Below, piece by piece: positions 2,465 through 63,562 of a DNA stretch of 64,000 nt (its first letter is position 1; each line of letters starts with the position of its first letter). A program made the position numbers and the translations under genes. A model generated the notes under the pieces. The model was not told where the DNA came from, ran no database searches, and saw nothing but the letters and a program-made list of their open reading frames with translations. The DNA lies in the NCBI RefSeq assembly GCF_003788585.1, contig NZ_AYKG01000034.1:1-64000 (forward strand). Direction: 5' to 3'. The DNA comes from Salinisphaera japonica YTM-1. GTDB taxonomy: Bacteria; Pseudomonadota; Gammaproteobacteria; Nevskiales; Salinisphaeraceae.

Positions 2465-2735
2465 TAGGGGGCTGTTGCCGTTTCGTACGAGCGCCGCGTT
2501 GGTGCCCAAAATCTGGCGAGGCAAGGCGCGAGCCACGGGTCGTGGCGCGCCACGACCAAGGTGAGCAACGCCGCATGGCCAGATTTTGGGCCCAACCCTT
2601 CGGGACAAGCGCTGTTGTGTGGCAATCCAGCGTTCTAGCCCACTGCGCGACAATGACTGCGCGGCGCGGGCCACGCCTCGTCTTGCCACAAAACAGCGCT
2701 TGGCGCGGGCTCGTACGAAACGGCAACAGCCCCTA
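2465..2735. repeat. 271-bp nested-palindrome element, copy A
   Basis: From TA to TA the element is 271 bp. Its ends are inverted repeats of about 27 bp (TAGGGG(G)CTGTTGCCGTTT... against the complement of ...AAACGGCAACAGCCCCTA). Inside are two large hairpins. Hairpin 1 has arms near 2504-2518 (CCCAAAATCTGGC) and 2578-2590, capped by an 18-nt perfect palindrome GTCGTGGCGCGCCACGAC at 2540-2557. Hairpin 2 has arms AAGCGCTGTTGTGTGGCAA near 2607-2625 and its complement near 2683-2701, with one mismatch. The right end supplies the stop codon of glnD (complement of CTA at 2733-2735). There is no credible ORF inside. It may be a MITE-like element or a structured 3'UTR. Confidence 0.9.
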
Positions 2736-5414
2736 ATGCTCTGAGCGATCCAGCTCAGTGGTCATGGTGCGGCGTAGCTCGCGCAGTACGGCGTCATCGG
2801 CAATCGCTATCTGTTGTCGATCGGTGACGAAGAACACGTCCTCGGCGCGCTCGCCGATCGTGGCGATCTTGGCGGTCTCGATCAGAATGCCGCAGCGATG
2901 AAAGACATCACCGATGATCGACAGCAGGCCCGGCCGGTCCGCGGTGATGATTTCCATGACCGTACAATCGCGCTCGGTCGCCGCCGAGAAATAGATCTGG
3001 GTCGGCACGTTGAAATAACGATTGCGCCGACTGGCGCGCCGGGTTACGTCGATACTCTCGACCGTGGGATCGGCGATCGCCTCAATCAGAGCGGCCTCGA
3101 CCTCTTGGCGGCGGAAATCCTCGCTGATCGGCTCGCCGGAATGCTCGGATACCACATAGGTGTCCAGCGTATAATCGTCGCTGGTGGAGTTGATGCGTGC
3201 ATCCAGTACCGACAGGCCGAGCTGTGCGAGCACGCCGGTGGTCACGCCAAATAAATAATCCCGGTCGCGGGTATACACGAACAGGGTGGTGCCCTGATCA
3301 GGGATATCGGTCAGCGTGACCAGTGGGGCATCGTCATCGCCGTGCTTGATGATTGCCCGGGTCTGTCGGGCGATCTCCTCGGGGCTGTGGCGCAGAAAGT
3401 ATTCGGGCTCGAAGCGGGTCCACAGCGTTTTGAAATGCGGGGTGTTGATGCCGGCGCGGGTCAGCATGGCAGCGGCGGCACTACGGGTTTCGGCTACCAG
3501 TTCGTCGCGATCCAGCGGGTCGTCCAGGCCGCGCTCCAGCGCGCGCCGTGTATTCATGTAGAGATCCGTGAGCAGGCTTTCCTTCCACGAGTTCCAGAGT
3601 TCGGGGTTGGTCGCACGGATATCACAGATCGTCAGGATGAACAGACGATCCAGGCGCTCACGCGTGGCCACTTCGCGTGCAAATTCGTTGACCACCTCGA
3701 CATCGTTGATATCTCGTCGCTGCGCGGTCATCGACATCAGAAGATGCTGGCGCACCAGCCAGCAGACCATATCGGTGTCCTCGGAGGAGATACCGTGTGC
3801 TTCACAGAACGCCCGGGCATCCGCCGCGCCGAGCTCTGAGTGATCACCGCCTCGGCCCTTGGCGATATCGTGCATCAGCCCGGTGATACACATGATCTGC
3901 GGCTTGTTCAGCGCCTGCATCAGCTCGCTGGCAAACGGCAGTTCATGGTCGAAGCGCGACAGCGACAGGCGCCGGATATTACGGATCACGAACAGCGTGT
4001 GCTCGTCCACGGTCAACGTATGGAACAGGTCATACTGCATACGCCCGATGATCTGGCCGAAGTTCGGCAGATAACGGCCCAGAATGCCGTAGCGATTCAT
4101 GCGCCGCAGGGCACGGGTGACGCCACTACGCTGGCGTAGAATCTCGGTGAACAGTCGCCGGCAATGTATTGAATTGCGGAAGGTTTCGTCGATCAAGCGA
4201 CGATCACGGCGTATCAGGCGCAGCGTGCGTGCCCGGATGCCTTGCAGCCCCGGGCGCGTCTCCATGAGATAAAAGATCTCGAGCAGGGCAGGCGGGTGTT
4301 CTTCGAAGACTTTTTCGTGCGTGACCTCGATGAAGCCGTGACGCGACTGGAAGCGTTCGTTGACCGCCCGTGGACGCTCGTCGTCGTCATCGATATGCAG
4401 GATCGCTTCGGAGAAAAGCTGAAGTAAAATATCATTAAGCGCGGATAATGCTTTGATATTCCTGTAATAACGCTGCATGAAACGCTCGACGGCCAGCGTG
4501 TTTTCGGCATCGTTGTAGCCCAGCATATGGGCGATCTGGATCTGATGGTCGAACAACAACCGGTTCTCGTTACGCCCGGTCAGCACATGTAGCGCGAAGC
4601 GCACGCGCCAGAGAAACGACTGGCCGCGATGCAGGTCGTTGTATTCACGCTCGCTCAAGAAGCCGTAGTCGACCAGGCCATCCAGCGTCTGGGCCGAGAA
4701 CTGACGCTTGGCGACCCAGGCGATGGTTTGAATATCGCGCAACCCCCCGGGCGACTCTTTAACGTTTGGCTCGAGCTTGTAGGCGGTTTCGTCAAAGCGC
4801 GCGTGACGTATCTGCTGCTCCTCGACCTTGGCGCTGAAGAAATCCGCGGAGGGCCAGACGTGCTCGGCCGAGGTGGCGGCCCGCATACGAGCGAACAATG
4901 CCGGGTCACCGGCCAGTACGCGGGATTCCATCAGGTTGGTGATAATGGTCAGATCACCGCGGGCCAACTCGGCGCACTCGCTCGGTGTGCGCACGGCGTG
5001 TCCGATCTCAAGGCCCAGATCCCAGAGATGGGTCAGAAATCGCTCGATGCCGGGCTTGGCGGTATCGAACTGATCGGCCTGATAGAGCACCAGAAGATCA
5101 ATGTCTGACTGTGGCAGCAATTCGTTGCGCCCGTAGCCACCCACGGCCACCAGGCATGCATGCTCGGTGGCCACGAGCTGGGCCCAGCTCTGGCGCAGCA
5201 CGGCGTCGATGACCTGGCCGCGCGCCCGCACCAGCCGGGTGATCGTGGCTTCATCGGCGGTGAAGGCCTCGGCGATGCGGCGCTGACCTTCAGCCAGCGC
5301 ACCGCGTACGGCTTTTAGATCAGTGGTGTCCAGCGCGGCCAGGCCGTCGATGAAGCTGTCCCAGCCGGCAAGGCCGGCATGGGCCGGTGTATCCGCCGTG
5401 GCAGGTGTGGTCAT
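2733..5414 (-). CDS. glnD: Bifunctional PII uridylyltransferase/uridylyl-removing enzyme GlnD
   Basis: Senses glutamine and adds or removes UMP on PII proteins (GlnB/GlnK), controlling glutamine synthetase and nitrogen gene expression. The 893-residue protein has the full architecture: an N-terminal nucleotidyltransferase with VGGYGRNELLPQSDIDLLVL (G92-L110, metal aspartates D104/D106), a central GlnE-like helical region, an HD phosphohydrolase site HDIAKGRGGDHS starting at H515-D516, and two C-terminal ACT domains from roughly 705 and 815 onward (TADRPGLLSIIGDVF in the second). It begins 1 bp after the map stop, so the two are cotranscribed. Its TAG stop is formed by the terminal repeat of the palindromic element immediately downstream. 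Confidence 0.97.
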   Translation of the reverse strand: MTTPATADTPAHAGLAGWDSFIDGLAALDTTDLKAVRGALAEGQRRIAEAFTADEATITRLVRARGQVIDAVLRQSWAQLVATEHACLVAVGGYGRNELLPQSDIDLLVLYQADQFDTAKPGIERFLTHLWDLGLEIGHAVRTPSECAELARGDLTIITNLMESRVLAGDPALFARMRAATSAEHVWPSADFFSAKVEEQQIRHARFDETAYKLEPNVKESPGGLRDIQTIAWVAKRQFSAQTLDGLVDYGFLSEREYNDLHRGQSFLWRVRFALHVLTGRNENRLLFDHQIQIAHMLGYNDAENTLAVERFMQRYYRNIKALSALNDILLQLFSEAILHIDDDDERPRAVNERFQSRHGFIEVTHEKVFEEHPPALLEIFYLMETRPGLQGIRARTLRLIRRDRRLIDETFRNSIHCRRLFTEILRQRSGVTRALRRMNRYGILGRYLPNFGQIIGRMQYDLFHTLTVDEHTLFVIRNIRRLSLSRFDHELPFASELMQALNKPQIMCITGLMHDIAKGRGGDHSELGAADARAFCEAHGISSEDTDMVCWLVRQHLLMSMTAQRRDINDVEVVNEFAREVATRERLDRLFILTICDIRATNPELWNSWKESLLTDLYMNTRRALERGLDDPLDRDELVAETRSAAAAMLTRAGINTPHFKTLWTRFEPEYFLRHSPEEIARQTRAIIKHGDDDAPLVTLTDIPDQGTTLFVYTRDRDYLFGVTTGVLAQLGLSVLDARINSTSDDYTLDTYVVSEHSGEPISEDFRRQEVEAALIEAIADPTVESIDVTRRASRRNRYFNVPTQIYFSAATERDCTVMEIITADRPGLLSIIGDVFHRCGILIETAKIATIGERAEDVFFVTDRQQIAIADDAVLRELRRTMTTELDRSEH

Positions 5415-59604: not shown

Positions 59605-59875
59605 TAGGGTCTGTTGCCGTTTCATGCGAGCCCGCGTTGGAGACCGCAAATCGTGTCCTGCAAGGCGCGAGTCGCCGCATCGTGGCGTGCCACGATCAAG
59701 GCTCGTAACGCCGCAGGGCGCGATTTGCGGCCCAACCCTTTGGGACAAGCGCTGTTTTGCGGCAATACAGCGTTCTAGCCCACTAGCCCAGAATGACTGC
59801 GCGGCGTGGGCTACGCCTCGTCTTGCCGCAAAACAGCGCTTGGCGCGGGCTCGCATGAAACGGCAACAGGCCCTA
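59605..59875. repeat. 271-bp nested-palindrome element, copy B
   Basis: 271 bp from TA to TA, with end repeats TAGGGTCTGTTGCCGTTTCA... and ...TGAAACGGCAACAGGCCCTA. Hairpin 1 arms CCGCAAATCGTGTCCTG (59645-59661) and CAGGGCGCGATTTGCGG (59714-59730) are capped by ATCGTGGCGTGCCACGAT (59679-59696). Hairpin 2 arms are AAGCGCTGTTTTGCGGCAA and its complement (about 59748-59766 with 59822-59840). Compared with copy A the arm sequences differ but remain paired. Its right end is 14 bp from the stop codon of the BCCT transporter. Confidence 0.9.
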
Positions 59876-62632: not shown

Positions 62633-63294
62633 GGCCAAACCGGCCCGTTGATACACCACGACCGCGACGCGCGGATACACCGGCCGCCGGTTGCAGGCGT
62701 TGCCCGCGTCTGGTTGCCCTCCGGCGTGAACTAGGCGCGACGTATCCGTCATACCACGGCGCTTCGGTCACGGCCGTGGGGCCGGTCGATGCCGCGTTGC
62801 TGGTCGTCGGTCTGGCCCCGGGGCTGCACGGGGCCCACCGTACGGGGCGCCCATTCAGTGGTGATGACTCGGGCGGCCTGCTCTTCGAGATGCTGCATGC
62901 CTATGGCTGGGCCAATCAGCCGGTTTCGACCGGGCCGGGCGATGGGCTGGTGCTCCAGAATTGTCGTATGACCAACGCCGTGAAGTGCCTGCCGCCGGAC
63001 AACCGGCCTCTGGGGCATGAGCGCCGCGCGTGTAGTGGCTTCTTGCGCGCCGAACTGCGCGGCCCGCGGGTGATCGTCGCCCTGGGCCGCCTGGCGCATG
63101 ACGCGGTGCTTGCAGCGTTATCAATCCGCATCGCGGCCTATCCGTTCGGCCATGCCTGCGAGCATCGCCTGGATGACCGGCGGGTGCTGATCGACTCGTA
63201 CCACTGCAGCCGCTATAACCTGAACACCCGGCGTCTGACCCGTGACGGGTTCGCCGCGGTATTTGCGCAGGCCCGGCGCCGACTCGTTGCCTAG
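62629..63294 (+). CDS. Family 5 uracil-DNA glycosylase (UDGb), apparent CTG start
   Basis: Removes uracil and other deaminated bases from DNA. The glycosylase core LLVVGLAPGLHGAHRTGRPFSG and the later SYHCSRYN motif identify UDGb. A GTG at 62776 would give only 172 residues and lose the Fe-S cysteines. The same frame is open upstream and encodes C22 and C25 in CRRCPRLVALRRE, the usual N-terminal [4Fe-4S] box, with C120 and C135 as the other ligands. The only credible start before them is CTG at 62629, which overlaps the rraA stop as CTGA and has GGTGAG 8 nt upstream. That gives 221 residues, a normal family length. The TAG stop belongs to the palindromic element. Confidence 0.82.
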   Translation: MRPNRPVDTPRPRRADTPAAGCRRCPRLVALRRELGATYPSYHGASVTAVGPVDAALLVVGLAPGLHGAHRTGRPFSGDDSGGLLFEMLHAYGWANQPVSTGPGDGLVLQNCRMTNAVKCLPPDNRPLGHERRACSGFLRAELRGPRVIVALGRLAHDAVLAALSIRIAAYPFGHACEHRLDDRRVLIDSYHCSRYNLNTRRLTRDGFAAVFAQARRRLVA

Positions 63295-63562
63295 GGCGCG
63301 TCGTCATAAGATAAACCGGCGCACCGGCGGCCAAGCCGCGGCAAGACAAGGCATCGCGAGTGCAGCGTGGTTATTCCACGTAAACGGACGATAACGCAGG
63401 ATTGCCGGGGCTTGCCCACCGGCCCATTCGGGTTGCTCGCGCCGGACGCGCCATGCCGCGTTGCGGGCCTTGACCGTGGCTGGCCACGCTCGGCGGCCCG
63501 CGCCTTGCCTGACACGCCCGGCGCGGGCAATGCGACGGCATATCCTATGACGACACGCCCTG
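63292..63562. repeat. 271-bp nested-palindrome element, copy C (diverged)
   Basis: Again exactly 271 bp, TA to TG. Terminal repeats AGGGCGCGTCGTCATAAGATA and TATCCTATGACGACACGCCCT differ in sequence from copies A and B but are inverted over 21 bp with two mismatches. Hairpin 1 pairs AAGCCGCGGCAA (63333-63344) with TTGCCGGGGCTT (63402-63413) and is capped by CGTGG-TTATT-CCACG. Hairpin 2 pairs the TTGCTCGCGCCGG arm near 63433 with its complement near 63519-63531 and holds an inner CGTGGC-TG-GCCACG. The left end contains the glycosylase TAG stop. 63563-63621 is plain spacer before uvrC. Confidence 0.85.

Follow-up and report, generated by a model that had tools for sequence, protein, structure and literature searches.

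What is the 271-bp palindromic element that recurs in this DNA, what multiplies it, and what keeps its folded interior intact? The window, by which we mean the whole 64,000-nt stretch of Salinisphaera japonica YTM-1 contig NZ_AYKG01000034.1 analysed here, carries copies A, B and C (Table 1). An earlier note had described them as one structured element present three times at exactly the same length, and we recovered all three at the positions and the 271-bp length it gave, including the TG that stands in place of TA at one end of copy C. Its terminal inverted repeats, two large hairpins and cloverleaf were likewise borne out: computed with DNA parameters, every copy folds in this way (-96 to -120 kcal/mol), with the same layout of terminal inverted-repeat stem, hairpin 1, mini-hairpin and hairpin 2. 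The notion of a single three-copy element held only in part, since the repeat is structured and present three times in the window, but many more copies exist in the genome, and A and B belong to one family and C to another.

Table 1 The three copies of the element in the window and the parts of copy A.
Feature	Position	Strand	Remarks
MITE copy A (family A)	2465..2735	+	271 bp TA-to-TA; flanking genes dapD and glnD
MITE copy B (family A)	59605..59875	+	271 bp; flanking genes encode a GST-like protein and a BCCT transporter
MITE copy C (family C)	63292..63562	-	271 bp; minus-strand body homologous to A and B
Copy A terminal stem, left arm	2465..2503	.	DNA fold; inner limit approximate
Copy A hairpin 1, CGTGG..CCACG cap	2504..2591	.	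DNA fold; limits by eye
Copy A hairpin 1 core, CAAGGCG..AACGCCG	2522..2573	+	Type 2
Copy A mini-hairpin CCCTTCGGG	2596..2604	.	Separates the two large hairpins
Copy A hairpin 2	2607..2701	.	DNA fold; limits by eye
Copy A hairpin 2 core, CAAGACGAGGC..AACGCTG	2628..2685	-	Type 1; opposite strand
Copy A terminal stem, right arm	2702..2735	.	

Over the full length, copies A and B show 84% identity; they differ from each other in the arms of hairpin 1. Copy C aligns poorly with either in the same orientation because it represents another family, the body of which is homologous to theirs in the opposite orientation: a stretch of C is 81-84% identical to reversed A copies, and reversal of C places its cores almost where those of A and B lie. 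Two of the copies supply stop codons. The TAG stop of glnD (2733-5414, minus strand) reads as CTA at 2733-2735, the last bases of copy A, and that of a UDG-family-4-like ORF upstream of copy C is the TAG at 63292-63294, the first bases of C; both were read from the intact sequence, since in the survey by a crude gene caller the joined copy A had one extra T and C was classed as lying inside a gene. As the element starts with TAG and ends with CTA, insertion at a stop codon preserves a stop and leaves the protein unchanged. Spurious ORFs cross copy A, and a transposase gene would not fit into 271 bp. The sole Rfam match in the window is a t44 RNA (RF00127; 6306-6397, plus strand; 69.9 bits).

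Further copies, for which the earlier note had proposed a search, exist both in the same genome and in relatives. In the draft genome of the strain itself (3.26 Mb, 69 contigs), copy A as query found at least 40 places at 183 bits or more, at least 37 of them near the full query (40 of 144 candidates scored), and copy C found at least 62 matches, at least 22 nearly full length (40 of 115 candidates scored). Allowing up to one mismatch, we counted 149 A-type end motifs there, against 0 for the reversed control pattern, and some draft contigs terminate within a copy. Solo A-type ends in this genome, read outward, led to partial or degraded copies and to no transposase. Among relatives, query A matched 25 of 41 genomes, including all 14 of the genus; query C also matched 14/14 genus genomes, eight of them strongly (best E < 1e-40), and its weaker matches may reflect homology of the body alone. 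Plasmids, phages and E. coli genomes returned no match to A, and plasmids none to C.

To characterize insertion, we used 90 A and 33 C full-length copies from the own and sister genomes; these are the best-scoring matches and thus biased to well-kept copies, with decayed ones under-represented. TA flanks both sides of 66/90 A and 13/33 C copies. Among these TA-flanked copies, the target was CTAG in 37/66 (A) and 9/13 (C), the remaining targets being CTAA, TTAA, TTAG, CTAC, GTAG, GTAC and CTAT. Given that targets such as TTAA and GTAC occur, the duplication comprises TA only. CTAG itself is rare: a 246-kb own-genome pool (the window plus L001-L060) holds 86 such sites, about one tenth of the expectation from base composition by our own estimate.

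The empty sites that the earlier note had suggested looking for in sister strains were found, those of window copies A and C among them. Joined 130-bp flanks of 16 own-genome copies were compared with 13 sister genomes and the joins read. In one sister genome (G011), ten of the 16 sites were uninterrupted: L001 (window copy A), L004, L007, L010, L014, L017, L031 (window copy C), L033, L036 and L040. Sites L005 and L022 were occupied in G011 and uninterrupted in G010. Nine of the 12 uninterrupted sites showed a single TA at the join, the exceptions being CA in L014 and L033 and small gaps in L031. L002, L003, L018 and L048 gave weak alignments (68-77%) devoid of a large insertion and were excluded from the empty-site count. 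Within about 30 bp of the copy B site (L018), G011 carries a C-family element (L349; contig 57, ~1149-1378), so that two families lie at nearly one site in sister species.

Short length, terminal inverted repeats, many copies, a TA duplication and the lack of a transposase gene together identify the elements as MITEs. The crude codon-composition gene caller placed 8 of the 45 own-genome copies inside predicted genes and the other 37 outside them; 18/45 sit exactly at a stop codon, hence at the 3' end of a gene. By the same crude caller, 19 of the 86 background CTAG sites coincide with TAG stops; the preference is modest, and we do not claim it as targeting.

Comparison of A with the reverse complement of C revealed, unexpectedly, one common body with the same internal spacing. 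It consists of two hairpins in opposite orientation around the mini-hairpin, each built on a core of the form CAAGRCG..AGCG..cap..AACGCNG. The earlier note had overlooked this fixed-spacing two-hairpin body, which is common to families with different ends. A core pattern derived from the hairpin (GCAAGRCRAGGC, 32-60 bases, AACGCNGNATTGCC) was found in at least 109 stretches of named genomes, whose hosts include Salinisphaera, Pseudomonas, Stutzerimonas, Halomonas, Salinicola, Modicisalibacter and Chitinimonas, as well as MAGs named Desulfobacterales, Burkholderiales and Lysobacterales that may be mis-binned. It occurred in three of 274 class genomes (55, 2 and 5 sites; reversed control 0). In the window, a short core pattern at two mismatches gave 54 hits against a mean of 41, barely above chance. 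One viral contig that matches the core pattern looks like a chance hit. Sixteen plasmid records hold related sequence, none of it annotated under the match in the PLSDB gene table, which is incomplete.

In Pseudomonas and other genera, the core-bearing elements have other ends (GCAGGCCGTTGAAAAAC, AGACTGTGTGAAAACG and GAGGGTGTTTACAAAA). The last of these differs, by eye, at two of 17 positions from the end of ISPsy19 as printed in PMC3189936, where ISPsy19 is listed as an IS5-family IS with a 3-nt duplication. Single-hairpin elements also exist: 19 measure 143-146 bp TA-to-TA, others lack TA flanks, and further versions span 176 and 193 bp. With TA demanded at each end and a minimum of 14 matched bases out of 18, a finder of terminal inverted repeats returned nothing for 51/82 type-1 and 10/19 type-2 rows, some type-2 sites being counted twice. 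At two loci of G325 (L368 and L373), a type-2 core lies between outer repeats GGCCACTCGCC.. with ends that are not cleanly TA, possibly the mark of another transposase class. A Pseudomonas contig (L250) contains near-threshold matches to the TwoAYGGAY RNA family at 665-729 and 1166-1231, away from the core.

Double elements with other ends, in other gammaproteobacterial families and in a Burkholderiales MAG, keep the same architecture. A Burkholderiales MAG (L270) contains an element of exactly 271 bp at CTAG, with ends TAGGGAGCCTCTGAATAAGT, both hairpins and the mini-hairpin; as a query it matched 7/369 class genomes, one of which (L369) looks like chance, and no plasmid. A second core pattern, CAAGGCG..AGCG..ATAAGCGA..AACGC, was found at 13 places in 7/369 genomes (control 0) and is absent from the own genome because the type-2 cores differ there. 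Other complete double elements measure 269 bp (G315), 270 bp (G280) and 276 bp (two in G390), with ends different from each other and from those of A and C, although some ends are related, those of G315, G280 and A having an AGG..CTGTT tip in common. In window copies A, B and C (reversed), L270, G315 and G280, core 1 begins at position 56-58 and the end of core 2 lies at 214-221; G390 shows a shift of about 10 bases. Identity between these families is 0.47-0.60, compared with 0.41-0.46 for shuffled sequence. Most Salinisphaera copies with both patterns readable (58/90 A, 18/33 C) keep these positions.

We next asked how base pairing has been maintained, reconstructing ancestors by parsimony on a FastTree tree of the 90 A copies. 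Because each tested structure came from folding a single member of its set, it has an advantage over slid versions. Family A showed 92 same-branch double changes from one Watson-Crick pair to another (44 of them in the terminal stem, and 23 and 25 in hairpins 1 and 2), as opposed to a mean of 2.7 (maximum 12) with permuted partners and 0-5 with slid ones; family C showed 17 versus 1.0 in the control. Of 85 runs of A double changes, 78 were single pairs and seven double, and since almost all are isolated pairs, block exchange of whole hairpins is no explanation. Some diverged family A copies (L132, L139) have a different inner fold. Across genera, 15 cores were scored on one named structure against 500 shuffles: 86.7% of cells were paired, versus 71.5 +/- 1.7 in shuffled and at most 47.8 in slid versions, and 29 cells were two-sided versus 9.5 shuffled, with 0/500 shuffles as high in either measure. 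Pairs with a two-sided change numbered seven, versus 5.5 shuffled, a value reached by 88 of 500 shuffles. All but one of the variable bases of the second stem and the cap stem had been left free by the search pattern. RNAalifold, run on the core alignment, recovered the cap stem and preferred a different lower stem.

Selection on folding and arm-to-arm copying are both possible explanations of this pairing. The latter would yield complementarity devoid of function, the arms of a palindrome correcting each other by template switching during replication. The predominance of single pairs changing on one branch is what mutation followed by arm-to-arm copying predicts, and the terminal stem is affected as well, with nearly half of the double changes. 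Such correction nonetheless leaves unexplained that, from genus to genus, arms and ends change and yet the core keeps its sequence and positions and the element its total length, and we consider it a rather unlikely account of the body.

Slightly less likely still, in our judgement, is that the body works as RNA, its hairpins being co-transcribed and altering the processing or stability of neighbouring transcripts, with selection at the RNA level keeping the pairs. The location of most own-genome copies outside genes, many of them at stop codons by the crude gene caller, would suit such a role. One-sided changes in family A, read on the core-reading strand, also leave G-T more often than A-C in core pairs (81 to 32), and the per-pair test for A hairpin 1 gave 22 to 10 (p 0.05). 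In family C, however, the G-T and A-C totals are even (21 to 22), and the per-pair test over A and C core pairs was not significant (29 vs 23, p 0.49). No Rfam family matches the copies at its gathering score; a search of seven loci at E up to 1 returned a single match in an A copy, mir-1265, at 26 bits versus a gathering score of 79. In copies A and B no terminator-like site was found, and since the two cores read opposite strands, one transcript can read one core but not the other.

Relatives carry autonomous elements with matching ends, which the earlier note had proposed to seek; in the own genome none was found. Among sister-genome loci matching PF01609, four insertion sequences are bounded on both sides by equally spaced A-type ends: L091, L096, L110 (G006) and L097 (G001). 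They measure 864 bp TA-to-TA (in L110 and L097). Their transposase frame of 267 codons is complete in L110 and L097, and a single stop interrupts it in L091 and L096. A second lineage, 65% identical to the first in protein and seen in G007, has ends with GTTGCCG in place of GTTGAGG; L310 represents it, with the end variant TAGGGCGTGTTGCCGTTTC on both sides. GTTGCCG-ended IS were also seen in G003 (split, two frames) and G005 (partial). Both IS end variants occur among the MITEs, and window copies A and B have GTTGCCG. The partner transposases match Pfam domains PF13340 and PF01609, and the A-type ones (P0001, P0002, L310) score 248-267 bits against NCBIfam transpos_IS5_3 (NF033580; cut-off 110).

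Family C has partners of its own, L093 (G012) and L105 (G006), of about 840 bp. L093 contains two overlapping frames, both above the transpos_IS5_3 cut-off, and L105 a frame with stops. Their right ends (TAGGGCATGTCGTCACGAGAT and TAGGGCGTGTCGTCACGAGAT) are close to those of C copies; the left ends match less well, differing in L093 at about four of the first 20 bases. By size (~840-864 bp), 2-bp duplication and overlapping frames, the partners of both families appear to fit the IS427 group as tabulated in PMC3281130. Five IS sequences contained no core, and the ends are common with L110 over 13-23 bp only, at up to three mismatches; as far as these sequences tell, the interior of the MITE is not a remnant of the IS.

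The own genome gave no match to PF01609 and none to the A-type partner transposase P0001. Eight of the 14 genus genomes, the own included, had no match to the A-type partner transposase at E 1e-20, and the complete genome G008 combines 114 A-type ends and five PF01609 matches with none to the A-type partner at the same threshold. G006 carries MITEs of both end variants, yet only one IS variant was found there. With no match to the A-type partner transposase in the own genome or in G008, current activity in the own strain is doubtful, and in genomes devoid of that transposase the MITEs seem to be orphans.

The earlier note had likened the TA flanks to IS630/mariner-type MITEs. Its description of a MITE-like, TA-flanked, structured repeat stands, whereas the partner is of the IS5 family; beyond the flanks, an IS630 origin could cite a single IS630-type DDE_3 frame at C9:189-620 of the own genome, but none of 12 PF13358 loci in six genomes has A- or C-type ends on both sides while several IS5-family loci do, and we regard this origin as very improbable. 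The own-genome frame (L122) adjoins an A-type end at a contig edge and may be unrelated to the MITEs. A resemblance to IS6-family tips, also raised in the earlier note, does not survive: the partner is of the IS5 family, and the duplication is TA, compared with 8-9 bp in IS6 according to the table of PMC3281130. Finally, REP/BIME-like palindromes moved by RAYT (Y1) transposases, which the palindromic, mostly intergenic, many-copy character of the elements might recall, appear most improbable in view of the long terminal inverted repeats, the TA duplication, IS5-family partners with the same ends, and a length far beyond that of REPs, RAYT-associated palindromes tagged GTAG or CGTC whose length PMC3733652 gives as 20-40 bp; the earlier note had likewise not matched the element to REP or BIME.

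Very probably, then, the element is a MITE multiplied by IS5-family transposases acting on matching ends, with a folded body of its own behind exchangeable ends. The ordinary part of this explanation, a MITE served by such transposases, is well supported, and the IS5-family IS with the same ends in relatives suggest that the MITEs are mobilised in trans. A transposase made elsewhere in the cell would cut at the MITE ends, and the excised element would be joined into a new CTAG; copies would multiply while such an IS is present and stay as orphans after its loss. We think it most likely that the body was retained because its folded form would aid movement or tolerance, for instance if the extruded fold draws the ends together when DNA is single-stranded at replication or, alternatively, if the folded body binds a host factor. 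The ends, for their part, may have been swapped or have diverged to track whatever IS5-family transposase the cell had to offer.

Most descriptions of bacterial MITEs treat them as decayed copies of IS and name them separately for each genome. In the present elements the interior, and not the ends, is conserved across families: the two core hairpins hardly change position and stand behind six end sequences, three of which have similar tips. We tentatively entertain, as a reading somewhat short of probable, one ancient non-autonomous superfamily spanning gamma-, beta- and probably deltaproteobacteria, in which the folded core (~146 bp single, ~271 bp double) would be inherited, serving a conserved host function or transposition step, and would take new terminal repeats and so change the IS5-family transposase that it exploits. 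The conserved interior makes the elements a candidate case of transposase capture through end exchange and frames a testable question, namely whether a MITE's own structural module drives its spread, whichever transposase moves it. The core pattern also gives a means of looking for repeats that lack annotation in Pseudomonas, Halomonas and Salinisphaera genomes. So far as our searches reach, the literature holds no description of the shared two-hairpin body, and the core and end strings appeared only in papers unrelated by title and abstract; what appears undescribed is the conserved, fixed-spacing body behind different ends.

Several known systems resemble these elements in part. QMITE2 of Coxiella burnetii also combines terminal repeats with a core and a very stable predicted fold, but has 7-9 bp direct repeats, and the available text of PMC10969869 mentions no shared body. 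The R0, R2 and R6 repeats of Pseudomonas fluorescens are likewise intergenic, have inverted repeats and show a tail-repeat-tail bias, the inverted repeats of R0 and R2, which were proposed to be MITEs, being identical to those of resident IS; at 89-177 bp, they are of other lengths (PMC2718517). TIMEs, miniature elements derived from Tn3, come close in size (262 bp), mobility, conserved core stretches and predicted stable fold, yet have Tn3-type ends of about 38 bp, a 5-6 bp duplication and a transposase of another family (PMC4133298). On the side of the partners, members of the IS5 family IS427 group from Paracoccus share the length (~830-865 bp), the short ends, the mostly 2-bp duplication and the one or two overlapping frames (PMC3281130); the MITEs have only the ends in common with such IS, not the interior. 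MITEPsy1 of Pseudomonas syringae pv. phaseolicola differs in its 100-nt length, 18-nt ends and 4-nt duplication, and the available text of PMC3189936 describes no two-hairpin body; it is nevertheless a MITE with IS5-type ends ('IS5?' in the table) found at CTAG or YTAA, and one that transposes in vivo (PMC3189936).
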